DNA of 64,000 nt from Thiothrix unzii. GTDB taxonomy: Bacteria; Pseudomonadota; Gammaproteobacteria; Thiotrichales; Thiotrichaceae. Numbering within the stretch: the first letter of the stretch is position 1; every line of letters starts with the position of its first letter. The stretch covers positions 2,976,001 through 3,040,000 of the forward strand of contig NZ_CP072793.1 in the NCBI RefSeq assembly GCF_017901175.1. Reading direction: 5' to 3'. This document shows positions 46,328 through 49,138 of the stretch, in pieces. The translations under genes and the position numbers were made by a program. The notes below the pieces were generated by a model. That model ran no database searches, was not told where the DNA came from, and saw only the letters and a list, made by a program, of their open reading frames with translations.

Positions 46328-46342
46328 TGGCACACACTTTGC
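46328..46342 (+). promoter_or_regulatory. Sigma-54 promoter of the tRNA-like/slipin operon
   Basis: TGGCAC (46328-46333), 5 bp, TTGC (46339-46342). The 18-bp window differs from the rtcB promoter at two bases. Predicted start near 46353, just upstream of the tRNA-like array. Confidence 0.9.
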
Positions 46343-46349
46343 AAAACCA

Positions 46350-46403
46350 TTGGCGACTTTCGTTACTCGTGGAGCAGGTTCAAATACCTGCCTGACGCAA
46401 CCA
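46350..46403 (+). ncRNA. T-arm/acceptor minihelix-like sequence ending in CCA
   Basis: A T-arm-like hairpin GCAGG-TTCAAATA-CCTGC (46374-46391; loop 8, normally 7) is followed by CTGACGCAA and CCA (46401-46403). TTGGCGAC (46350-46357) can pair with GACGCAA (46394-46400) with one bulge and one mismatch as an acceptor-like stem. No D or anticodon arm is present. Predicted transcription would begin within this stem, so whether it forms in the RNA is uncertain. Confidence 0.35.
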
Positions 46404-46445
46404 CCGCTGGTGTACCCGCGTATCTGTTCTGATCGTCACAACCAT

Positions 46446-46520
46446 GCAGCCATAGCTCAGTCTGGTAGAGCAACCGAGAGATTCGGTCGGTCGTTGGTTC
46501 AACTCCAACTGGCTGCTCCA
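46446..46520 (+). ncRNA. tRNA-like element 1, with abnormal anticodon arm and encoded CCA
   Basis: A perfect 7-bp acceptor (GCAGCCA 46446-46452 with TGGCTGC 46510-46516), discriminator T, encoded CCA (46518-46520), D-arm GCTC/GAGC with the canonical AGTCTGGTA loop, and T-arm GTTGG/CCAAC with the canonical TTCAACT loop. The anticodon arm is ACCGA/TCGGT (73-77 with 83-87) with only a 5-nt loop GAGAT. A 9-nt loop alternative, using TCGGT at 87-91, is possible but leaves a one-base variable region. There is no U33 and no usable anticodon. It is therefore a tRNA-shaped RNA that should not decode. Confidence 0.8.
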
Positions 46521-46595
46521 TCACTATAGCTCAGTCTGGTAGAGCACTGGATCTGGTATCTGGTTGTCGCCGGTTCAACTCCGGCTAGTGAACTA
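46521..46595 (+). ncRNA. tRNA-like element 2, with weak anticodon stem and no CCA
   Basis: It begins directly after the CCA of element 1. Acceptor TCACTA/TAGTGA (6 bp), the same D-arm and loop as element 1 (21 identical bases, ATAGCTCAGTCTGGTAGAGCA), and T-arm GCCGG/CCGGC with loop TTCAACT. The anticodon arm CTGGA/TCTGG has two G-U pairs and a 7-nt loop TCTGGTA with C, not U, at position 33; the anticodon position reads TGG. The 3' tail is ACTA, not NCCA. A hairpin CTACC-CTTTTAC-GGTAG (46593-46609) overlaps this tail and would compete with it. Confidence 0.75.
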
Positions 46596-46716
46596 CCCTT
46601 TTACGGTAGCTTGGCCCGCAAGGGTAAACAAACGGCAAACCACCAAGGTCAATGCCTGACGGCAGCACGTGTTTCGGCACGGATTACCCGACGGCAACGA
46701 CCAGCACCCGCGCCGC

Positions 46717-46795
46717 CTTGACGGTGGGTTTGGTGGATGCGAAACCGCAACGGCTTCGGCTCACGCGGATTTCCCATCCGACACAAACCGTCAAG
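46717..46795 (+). ncRNA. Highly foldable 79-nt RNA element upstream of slipin gene
   Basis: Stacked helices: CTTGACGGT (46717-46725) with ACCGTCAAG (46787-46795); GGATG (46735-46739) with CATCC (46775-46779); GAAACCGC (46741-46748) with GCGG-A-TTTC (46765-46773, one bulged A); and a UUCG-tetraloop hairpin (46752-46761). Such nesting around a UUCG loop is unlikely by chance. It lies between the tRNA-like array and the slipin gene, in the leader of the same transcript. Family not recognised. Confidence 0.6.
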
Positions 46796-46843
46796 CCTGC
46801 ACGGGTGTGGGGGAATGCCACCCAATTTTTAAAGGACAACGCC

Positions 46844-48007
46844 ATGTTATTCAAAACCAAAATTATTGTTCCAGAAACACATCGCGGGCTGTTGTTCAAA
46901 GACGAACAGTTCGTACAAGTCCTGCCTGCGGGTGTCCACACCTTACACGGCTGGAAAAACCAATACCGCGTGCAGCAATTCGCCGTCACGGGTAGTGCGC
47001 AAACCTTCGTGCCGGAGGATGTCGTCAGCCTTGCCGACTTGCACCCTGACAAATTCGCCGCGCACCTCCAACGCTGGGAAACGGGCGAACAGGAAGTCGG
47101 TTTGCTGTACCAAGACAATGTGCTGAAAGACATCAAGCCGCCTGCGCAACGTGGTGCGTGCTGGCAAGGTCAGCGCAGCATTGAGGTGCGTAAAATTGAC
47201 ATCAGCACCGATTTCAAGCTGCCTAAAGCCTTGGCAAGCCAATTGCTGGCAGCCAAAGACCCCATCTTGCGGGCGGCGGCTTTCAACGCAATGGCTATCG
47301 CCATCATCCCCGAAGGCCACAGCGGTTTTCTTGAAGTTGACGGCGAACAGCACGAAATGCTGACGGCAGGTACGCACGTTTGGTGGAAGTTCAACCACAC
47401 CATCGAAGCAACCCAACTGGATTGCCGCCTGCAAAACATGGAAGTCAACGGTCAGGAAATCCTCACCAAAGACCGCGTAGGCTTGCGTATCAACCTCTCC
47501 GCCATGTGGCAGATTGTTGACCCGCAGCAAGTCAAAACGGCACTGGCAGACCACAAGGACTACCTGTACCGCGAGCTGCAATTGGCGTTACGTGCCGTGG
47601 TTTCCACCCAAACGCTGGACGAATTGCTGGCAGACAAAAACCTGCTCAACCAATCCATCCAGCAAACAGTGGTGGAAAAAGCAGCGGCTTACGGCATCGA
47701 CCTGAAAACCGTCGGGGCGCGTGACATCGTATTGCCCGGTGATATGAAGGCGATTTTGGCACAAGTCGTTGAAGCCGAGAAAAAGGCCGAAGCTAACCTG
47801 ATCCGCCGCCGCGAAGAAACGCAGGAAACACGCTCCATGCACAACACCGCCAAAGTCATGGAAGGCAACCCTGTGTTACTGCGCTTGAAAGAGTTGGAAA
47901 TCTTGGAAAAGATCACCGGACGCATCAGCACCCTGAACGTTTACGGCGGTCTGGATGGCGTGATGAACGATCTGGTCAAGCTGACGGACAAGGGCAAAGC
48001 AGCGTAA
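46844..48007 (+). CDS. SPFH/band-7 (slipin-like) protein of the RNA-repair operon, without membrane anchor
   Basis: 387 residues from the ATG at 46844, preceded by AAAGGA; the frame is open further up to 46652 but that stretch covers the structured RNA. SPFH domain at about 150-320 with the C-terminal block [26 protein letters not shown] and helical [23 protein letters not shown]. The first 45 residues ([23 protein letters not shown]) resemble the start of the SPFH domain proper ([23 protein letters not shown], about 150), an internal repeat. Slipins normally have an N-terminal membrane hairpin; none is seen, so it may be cytosolic. SPFH proteins occur next to RNA-repair genes in other bacteria. 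Confidence 0.85.
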
Positions 48008-48029
48008 CCTTACACAATGTGCCCCACCC

Positions 48030-48057
48030 GTAGAGACGCAAGATTTTGCGTCTCTAC
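48030..48057. repeat. 28-bp palindromic intergenic repeat, copy 3
   Basis: Identical to copy 2 (27680-27707). It lies between the slipin stop (48007) and kptA start (48078), inside the presumed operon transcript as a 12-bp hairpin. Confidence 0.9.
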
Positions 48058-48077
48058 ATTATCAAGACAAAAAAACT

Positions 48078-48626
48078 ATGAATCAAAAAACAGTAAAACA
48101 AAGTAAATTCCTCAGCCTCGTTCTGCGCCACCAGCCGGATAAAATCGGTCTGACGTTGGACGAAGCAGGCTGGGTATCTGTGGGCGAATTACTCACACAA
48201 TTAGCGGCGCACGGACGTAACATGAGCATGGAAGAACTGGAACACGTTGTCACCACCAACGACAAACAGCGTTTCAGTTTCAACGCAGACAAAACCCGTA
48301 TCCGCGCCAATCAGGGGCATTCCTTGCGAACACTCGATTTAGGATTGCAGGCTGTTGAGCCGCCCGAAATCTTGTATCACGGCACTGCCGAACGCTTTCT
48401 GGAGTCGATTTTACAGACAGGCTTGGAAAAACGTTCGCGTCAGCATGTGCATTTATCCGCCGATACAGAAACCGCGCACAAGGTTGGTATTCGTCACGGC
48501 AAGCCTGTCATTCTACAAATAGCGGCAGGACGAATGCAGCATGACGGTCTGATCTTTTATCATTCCGCCAACGGCGTATGGTTAACCGATCATGTGCCAG
48601 TCACATATGTAGAGGTAATGGCATGA
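48078..48626 (+). CDS. kptA: RNA 2'-phosphotransferase (KptA/Tpt1)
   Basis: 182 residues. Moves a 2'-phosphate from RNA to NAD+, the last step after some RNA ligation reactions. Motifs: [24 protein letters not shown] (Arg/His pair, about 10-33), [14 protein letters not shown] (about 97-110) and [25 protein letters not shown] (about 119-143). RtcB does not leave a 2'-phosphate, so KptA may act on ends repaired by another route or on 2'-phosphorylated RNAs. It follows slipin by 70 nt, across the repeat, and overlaps the exonuclease start by 4 nt. Confidence 0.93.
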
Positions 48627-49138
48627 CCTTCATTATGGTCGACATCGAAGCCGATGGCCCGATCCCCGGCGATTACTCCATGGTCAGTTTCGGCGCGGTC
48701 ATTGTCGAACCGGATTTGCAGCGCACCTTCTACGGGCAACTCAAACCCATTTCCGAACGCTGGATTCCGCAAGCCCTCGCAGTCAGTGGGCACAGCCGTG
48801 AGGAAACGCTTACGTTTGACGAACCAGCGGTGGTGATGCAACGTTTTGCCGATTGGCTCAAGCGCGAAGTCAAAGGCCGCCCGCATTTCATCGCCGACAA
48901 TAACGGTTTCGACTGGTCGTTCATCAATTGGTATTTCCACCATTTTCTGGGTGACAACCCATTTGGCTACAATTCCACCAATCTTGGCTCACTGTACAAA
49001 GGCGTGGTGCGGGATATGTTTCAGAACTTCAAGCACTTACGTAAAACGGCGCATGACCACCATCCGGTAAATGATGCGAAGGGGAATGCAGAAGCGTTGC
49101 TCACATTCGCGCGTCAATATGGCTTGAAATTACCTTAG
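48623..49138 (+). CDS. DEDD-family 3'-5' exonuclease
   Basis: 171 residues from the ATG at 48623, which overlaps the kptA stop (ATGA). DEDD acidic motifs: [22 protein letters not shown] (Asp5/Glu7, about 3-24), [17 protein letters not shown] (about 88-104) and [16 protein letters not shown] (about 144-159), an RNase T/ExoX/oligoribonuclease type fold (DEDDh, His near 146). Translational coupling to kptA suggests that it trims RNA 3' ends as part of repair or decay; DNA activity cannot be excluded. Confidence 0.85.

Follow-up and report, generated by a model that had tools for sequence, protein, structure and literature searches.

Why would a bacterium place tRNA-shaped RNAs ahead of a gene for an SPFH protein, behind the same type of promoter that drives its RNA ligase? 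The question is raised by a 64,000-nucleotide (nt) stretch of the Thiothrix unzii genome (contig NZ_CP072793.1, positions 2,976,001 to 3,040,000; host genome 3.72 Mb in 8 contigs), referred to here as the window. Downstream of a sigma-54 promoter at position 46328 lie, in order, a structured 5' element (E5), two tRNA-shaped RNAs, a structured 3' domain (E3), the SPFH gene, kptA and a DEDDh exonuclease gene; rtcB and rtcR are found 13-16 kb from this RNA-SPFH operon. A preliminary description, made from the sequence alone, saw here a two-locus RNA-damage response whose operon makes both repair enzymes and RNA mimics. Our comparison with related loci indicates that the conserved unit is a composite RNA, with E5 at its 5' end, one to three tRNA-like cloverleaves and E3 at its 3' end, beside the SPFH gene, and gives good support to one RtcR regulon spanning two loci. 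We propose, with a probability of roughly one half, that the unit is an RtcR-induced scaffold in which the composite RNA and the SPFH protein form a ribonucleoprotein (RNP) within an RNA-repair system.

Both structured elements are supported by covariation, which bears out the earlier suggestion of a foldable RNA and adds E5, an extra structured element that precedes the tRNA-likes. Across the 37 sequences aligned for E5, standard pairs fill 90.7% of cells, as opposed to 33.8-35.0% when partners are slid by one to three columns, and the covariation score is 0.564 versus at most 0.114 when slid. None of 500 shuffles matched that score, although 19 of the 500 had at least as many pairs in which both partners change. 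The E5 pattern GRCRC...GYGUAYC can be seen by eye to change in concert. E3 behaves likewise in 24 sequences (92.1% paired versus 34.0-47.8% slid; covariation 0.623 versus at most 0.151), with both-side changes in 25 of 32 pairs. These tests control for kinship only in part, and they were run on the very alignments that yielded the structures. The E5 set comprises the window and 36 of 40 anchored loci (L067, L068, L074 and L075 were excluded for inserts), near-duplicates and loci lacking a clear anchor having been removed beforehand, so the pairing figures describe recognizable members. The E3 tail was obtained from 28 of 32 loci, of which 24 were aligned (L002, a duplicate, and the diverged L061, L062 and L063 were excluded), and its closing helix was added after the alignment had been inspected. 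As a single sequence, 46356-46843 folds in a moderately unusual way (z = -2.19; 2 of 100 shuffles as good). In an Rfam scan of the window RNA region tRNA alone reached threshold; E5 and E3 match no Rfam family, and sub-threshold matches to Plastid-ycf2, mir-7918 and CRISPR-DR33 were treated as chance.

The RNA keeps company with the SPFH gene. A search model built from E5, R1, matches 7 of 369 genomes of the class (E<=0.01), and an SPFH-family gene lies just downstream in all seven; three of these (G000, G019 and G267) contribute E5 to R1's own alignment and the other four are independent. E5 occurs in 16 of 57 relatives (E<=0.1), all of them among the 17 that have this SPFH, the exception being G036. 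This specificity was measured with the E5 model alone, and E3 was aligned in gammaproteobacterial loci only; for the sample of relatives' loci, 80 of 215 were kept. Phylum-wide, the SPFH family (E<=1e-40) is present in 23 of 398 genomes, and ARAGORN calls tRNAs at 17 of these 23 loci, in every case placing one or more no farther than ~650 bases upstream of SPFH. E5 and the tRNA-likes extend to Cyanobacteria. An SPFH gene next to a tRNA-like RNA is a conserved adjacency. Of the gene order that the preliminary description proposed to look for, the RNA-SPFH neighborhood recurs in other genomes, and the kptA and exonuclease tail is not conserved.

The two tRNA-shaped RNAs had been recognized correctly, each exceeding the Rfam tRNA gathering score of 29, and the suggestion that they mimic tRNA is also supported by sequence. 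tRNA-like 2 has the lowest score of 45 tRNA matches genome-wide, and features expected of an elongator tRNA are missing in the window: neither domain has U33, the anticodon loop of tRNA-like 1 has 5 bases when folded by Rfam, and tRNA-like 2 encodes no CCA. In 69 of 78 loci, ARAGORN found 107 such domains at the module position (picked relative to SPFH), and in 17 of these loci it found 114 other tRNAs. A seven-base anticodon loop is present in 94 of the 107 versus 114 of 114, U33 in 60 versus 106 (Fisher p ~1e-10) and an encoded CCA in 38 versus 104 (Fisher p ~5e-19), relatedness being uncorrected in both tests. T-loop positions 54, 55, 56 and 58 are nonetheless invariant across the 103 distinct tRNA-likes, and the D-loop GG is kept in 102 of them versus 94 of 114 control tRNAs; ARAGORN accepts only sequences with tRNA-like D and T arms and so overstates how well the elbow is conserved, although the controls went through the same filter. 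Judged by these comparisons, the tRNA-likes, with a fixed elbow and decoding features that are often missing, do not qualify as ordinary tRNAs.

Their anticodon arms are diverse. The 103 tRNA-likes have 74 distinct anticodon loops, compared with 71 among the 114 controls, which are different isoacceptors, and position 33 in 90 seven-base loops is T in 51, G in 16, A in 14 and C in 9. Between some Thiothrix species the anticodon arm has been rebuilt with the remainder little changed (5 sequences; L001 versus L006, L033 versus L031), and L001 and L033 have an identical arm. CTCATAA is the most frequent loop (14 of 103) and hints at an origin from a CAU tRNA.

Regulation ties the unit to rtcB. 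The window holds only two zero-mismatch matches to the sigma-54 consensus, one ahead of the RNA-SPFH operon and one ahead of rtcB, which confirms the two promoters of the preliminary description; the identities of RtcR and RtcB hold as well. Upstream of each promoter lies a candidate enhancer, the palindrome TATC-N6-GATA, with one degenerate half in each window copy. The two upstream regions share a 15-mer in inverted orientation. When segments of equal size were drawn at random from the window, 0 of 2000 draws showed such sharing (draws near either promoter were skipped yet counted among the 2000). Where relatives have rtcR, rtcB and SPFH together, the exact palindrome stands 5' of rtcB in 20 of 27 loci (drawn from 28; the upstream of L042 was too short), against 148 of 5400 random 320-base windows, mostly coding, and 36 of 5400 sequences made by dinucleotide shuffling of these upstream regions. 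A sigma-54 site precedes rtcB in 18 of these 27 contiguous loci and a sigma-54-like site lies in the rtcB-SPFH interval in just one, which suggests that rtcB, the RNA and SPFH form a single operon in these loci. Among the 20 best RtcB loci from 35 genomes with a match (Thiothrix and kin, window included), a relaxed palindrome is found in 19 (background 60 of 2000 random windows and 243 of 4000 shuffles), the exact one in 8 and a sigma-54 site in 16.

Thiothrix loci in which the module has its own promoter carry the palindrome ~102-104 bases upstream of the sigma-54 site. Of 11 other loci examined, 9 have the relaxed motif 5' of the module, and L036 and L054 lack it; the sigma-54 pattern was not found 5' of the module in L015, L036, L037 and L054. 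RtcR exceeds its cut-off in 23 of 57 relatives and in 15 of the 17 that have SPFH. Because both promoters carry a copy of the candidate enhancer, which is also found 5' of rtcB in most relatives examined, a single RtcR regulon is well supported by sequence, and this part of the two-locus claim stands. In many relatives rtcR, rtcB, the RNA and SPFH are contiguous, so that an RNA ligase belongs to the system even where, as in the window, it lies 13 kb off behind the same promoter type. The palindromes may be the sites that RtcR binds; a search of the mostly open-access literature for a TATC-N6-GATA/RtcR site found nothing. The features of both loci are collected in the table below.

Table. Features of the two co-regulated loci in the window (window coordinates)
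Feature	Position	Strand	Evidence or remark
rtcR, CARF-AAA-HTH sigma-54 activator	28940..30547	-	Pfam 3.6e-74; NCBIfam equivalog 789.8 bits, cut-off 650
Candidate RtcR enhancer of rtcB, TATCTATAAAAATA	32390..32403	+	one half degenerate
Sigma-54 promoter of rtcB, TGGCACACCCCTTGCA	32480..32495	+	exact consensus
rtcB RNA ligase	32535..33767	+	Pfam 1.1e-130
Candidate RtcR enhancer of RNA-SPFH operon, TATTTTTATAGATA	46226..46239	+	one half degenerate
Sigma-54 promoter of RNA-SPFH operon, TGGCACACACTTTGCA	46328..46343	+	exact consensus
E5, structured 5' element	46342..46446	+	covariation; model R1 67.1 bits (window among the model's 37 sequences)
tRNA-like 1	46446..46520	+	ARAGORN and Rfam tRNA 55.2 bits; aberrant anticodon arm without U33; encoded CCA
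tRNA-like 2	46520..46593	+	ARAGORN and Rfam 44.2 bits; loop TCTGGTA (C33), no CCA, 6-bp acceptor
Two hairpins (CTACC/GGTAG; GCCC-GCAA-GGGT), spacer from tRNA-like 2 to E3	46593..46625	+	
E3, structured 3' domain with closing helix	46634..46819	+	covariation; ends ~25 nt before SPFH start
SPFH/Band-7 protein, 387 aa; N-terminal beta domains, SPFH, long helices	46844..48007	+	Band_7, 1e-28
Dispersed 28-bp inverted repeat, GTAGAGACGCAA-N4-TTGCGTCTCTAC	48030..48057	.	perfect; 32 genome copies
kptA/tpt1 RNA 2'-phosphotransferase, accessory	48078..48626	+	Pfam 2.7e-54; over an NCBIfam cut-off
DEDDh-type 3'-5' exonuclease, accessory	48623..49138	+	solved 3'-5' exonuclease 1.5e-30

The SPFH protein, named as such from the start, may also resemble a vault protein. 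Its AlphaFold model (predicted local distance difference test, pLDDT, 83.2) has strands at 3-47, 75-119 and 150-207, after which helices alternate with strands, and from 299 on the helices are long; no membrane segment is obvious by inspection. Foldseek matches it to major vault protein (MVP) chains (4e-10), aligned over 430-487 columns including gaps. We regard this modeled resemblance as a lead, one in line with the bacterial MVP homologs in RtcB operons cited below. The SPFH alignment of 60 sequences consists of the window and 59 of the 80 loci, L058 (stop codon) and 20 near-duplicate, partial or long-insert loci being excluded. A phage origin of the protein was rejected, as 50,697 phage records gave no match at E<=1e-10 and a single-sequence scan of viral_contigs no confirmed relative.

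We propose a model where cleaved tRNA fragments with cyclic-phosphate ends would activate RtcR, which would bind the TATC-N6-GATA enhancers and fire the two sigma-54 promoters, inducing transcription of rtcB from one and of the composite RNA and SPFH protein from the other. The RNA, with its E5, tRNA-like domains and E3, would be a dedicated non-coding RNA and could bind an oligomeric, vault-like SPFH ring or cage, assembling into an RNP. Through its mimicry of the tRNA elbow, this particle may recruit RtcB and local accessories (KptA, a nuclease or the RlaP described below) around damaged tRNA. The analysis gives a little-described SPFH/tRNA-like RNA association a defined, modular RNA with testable helices, a search model for one module and a candidate regulatory site. 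It also offers a handle on two questions: what use SPFH and vault-like proteins make of RNA, and why tRNA mimics are found in RtcR regulons.

Several observations weigh against such a scaffold. R1 reaches E<=0.01 in only 5 of the 23 phylum-wide SPFH loci, so E5 appears to be diverged or absent at many of them. Over 52 SPFH sources, R1 scores 35 at E<=0.01 and 41 at E<=1; cyanobacterial loci are among these matches, some of the sources duplicate or are closely related to the training sequences, and several misses are short of upstream sequence. Regulator and SPFH can also come apart, with SPFH lacking RtcR in 2 of 17 relatives and RtcR over the cut-off lacking SPFH in 8 of 23. In Escherichia coli K-12, rtcB has a sigma-54 site and no exact palindrome, which counts against a universal motif. 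On the protein side, the model has a predicted template modeling (pTM) score of 0.62, stomatins outrank MVP in Foldseek (1.6e-14) and the MVP TM-scores are modest, at ~0.34-0.42 on the query. No constant downstream repair enzyme was seen in the loci examined.

In the main rival account, the tRNA-likes might instead act as decoys or sentinels, offering their anticodon loops to tRNA-cleaving toxins or phage-defense nucleases, whether real tRNAs are thereby spared or cyclic-phosphate fragments are made for RtcR, with loops diversifying in an arms race. The many distinct loops and variable position 33 next to an invariant T-loop would fit, as would the rebuilding of the anticodon arm between some close relatives, and the accessible part of Hughes 2020 suggests that the tRNA-like domain of YrlA may competitively inhibit a nuclease (PMC7790460). 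Relaxed constraint on an unused loop would yield the same pattern, however, the arm requirement of ARAGORN exaggerates the constancy of the elbow, and E5 and E3 would be left with no obvious role; we consider this account possible but unlikely. A bolder version would join it to the scaffold: an uncatalogued composite tRNA-mimic RNA of Proteobacteria and Cyanobacteria, housed with a vault-like SPFH cage, would serve as an RNA-damage sentinel whose rapidly diversifying anticodon arms are bait for anticodon nucleases and are cut first, the fragments feeding RtcR and the cage RNP concentrating repair. This would make the unit a bacterial equivalent of the vault particle and the RNA that belongs to it, an appealing picture that we regard as rather doubtful.

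A third possibility is that E5, the tRNA-likes and E3 form a cis-acting leader, a switch in the 5' untranslated region that controls SPFH translation. The short distance from E3 to the SPFH start in the window agrees with this, as does the 250-530 nt that usually separates SPFH from the tRNA-likes upstream of it in gammaproteobacterial loci. In nine cyanobacterial loci, by contrast, E5 ends ~0.55-2.5 kb before the SPFH frame, with a reverse-transcriptase open reading frame (ORF) between them once (L110), and an elaborate E5 with tandem tRNA-likes exceeds, in our judgment, the usual leader; we think a leader distinctly unlikely. As for ordinary spare tRNAs that replace damaged ones, ARAGORN and Rfam do call the domains tRNAs, several related loci have normal-looking tRNA arrays and more than half of the domains keep U33. 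The losses of U33, the seven-base loop and CCA relative to other tRNAs led us to reject ordinary tRNA genes, and spare tRNAs are in our view very improbable. The scaffold remains the reading we favor.

The SPFH/tRNA-like RNA pairing is partly known. The abstract of Burroughs and Aravind (NAR 2016) reportedly named SPFH/Band-7 modules for which a novel tRNA-like molecule might serve as scaffold. In the portion available, a 2026 preprint credits that paper with MVP homologs and non-coding RNAs sharing RtcB operons (PMC13404743); the newness claimed for this gene set in the preliminary description was thus overstated. Going by the citing text and the abstract, the two systems share the SPFH protein, a neighboring non-coding RNA (reportedly tRNA-like) and the RtcB context. 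The present system seems to differ in the division of its RNA, with covariation, into an E5, one to three tRNA-likes and an E3, in an operon split from rtcB and in a kptA/exonuclease tail. What is added is a fuller RNA structure, fast-changing anticodon loops and a split, co-regulated layout, and we judge the locus to be a better resolved variant of a known RNA-repair system. The literature searched gave no account of E5 or E3, the variable anticodon loops or the split regulon; with most subscription literature outside the search, this is weak evidence of absence.

Other systems share parts of this arrangement. In Salmonella, according to the accessible text, tRNA fragments activate RtcR (Hughes 2020, PMC7790460), and rsr-yrlBA-rtcBA, like the window, combines RtcR/sigma-54 control with a tRNA-like-domain RNA beside a presumed binding protein, which is Rsr there and SPFH here. 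The window RNA does not reach the gathering score of the YrlA Y RNA family (Rfam RF02553; 26.3 versus 69 bits), and general scans found no TROVE/Rsr among the window proteins covered, no search aimed at TROVE having been run. The Anabaena TrcR regulon likewise co-regulates rtcB, a slipin gene and a tRNA operon under translational stress; it differs in its repressor TrcR, the lack of an RtcR homolog and a 26-gene tRNA operon, and the text available mentions no structured RNA (PMC10272220). PaFlo8 of Pseudomonas aeruginosa, as far as the accessible portion describes it, also has an SPFH gene within a locus of rtcA, rtcB and rtcR (PMC13086221); the term 'tRNA' occurs 0 times in that paper.

The same SPFH family (tblastn 41.6% identity) is found in an E. 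coli island between yjbD and lysC. Like the window operon, the island has a sigma-54-like site (one mismatch) with an exact TATC-N6-GATA upstream and is separate from rtcBA; in the records examined it differs in its partner, RlaP, of a Pfam family named for RNA repair. A 1657-base query of the E. coli slipin and its leader is at least 80% covered in 1621 of 5426 complete E. coli genomes. A relative with a sigma-54-like site and the enhancer motif in ~30% of genomes means that parts of the proposal are testable in a laboratory host. The slipin leader gave no R1, ARAGORN or Rfam match, and E5 homology in E. coli was rejected, R1 with filters off finding nothing up to E 10. Slipin-RlaP islands were seen at L141, L142 and L144, the first two with the sigma-54-like site and TATC-N6-GATA; in Citrobacter (L142) rtcR adjoins slipin.

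The tail of the window operon is less constant than its head. The identities proposed for KptA and the exonuclease hold, the latter by its match to a solved structure though under the Pfam RNase_T cut-off (20.1 versus 24 bits). Their place as fixed members does not: in 10 same-genus loci (L001-L009 and L012; 1.5-kb flanks), kptA follows SPFH in 4 and the exonuclease in 3, with one further match of 31 residues, and in L034 both lie 5-7 kb downstream. Given their patchy occurrence and the dispersed repeat that sets them apart from SPFH, both look like accessories and were rejected as core members; the hairpin of the repeat may mark an operon break before kptA. In a PADLOC scan the exonuclease matches the model 'Effector, exonuclease' (9.5e-39); of the other four window proteins scanned none matches apart from RtcR, which hits the RtcR model (5e-247) and one weak AAA-type model.

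Some loci carry additional tRNAs. Between 4 and 19 normal-looking tRNA genes stand beside the unit in L067, L068, L070, L078, L082, L083, L085, L092, L094 and L108, and in L068 17 tRNAs after SPFH are followed by an HNH endonuclease gene. Within the repair operon, these arrays may serve as a stock of replacement tRNAs, comparable to the Anabaena trn operon. A third tRNA-like in L106 (4055-4129) and L110 (3069-3145) is initiator-like with a UAG anticodon; its D-arm order presumably resembles that of tRNA-fMet. In L110 (Nostoc sp. T09), the reverse-transcriptase ORF that separates the RNA module from SPFH lies at 3544-4599. In Thiothrix fructosivorans (L012/L038) the SPFH match starts at residue 97, E5 lies ~1.5 kb upstream and several rtcB fragments are on the contig. 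A second RtcB, 61% identical, is encoded elsewhere in the genome (G000:C2:3309455-3310642), and similar second copies occur in many relatives. Within the window, a DUF3368 gene (30544-31017), PIN-like on our reading, overlaps the rtcR start, and the other genes include a PIN-domain gene (34917-35363), HipA (35382-36692) and a BsuBI/PstI restriction enzyme (39624-40577).

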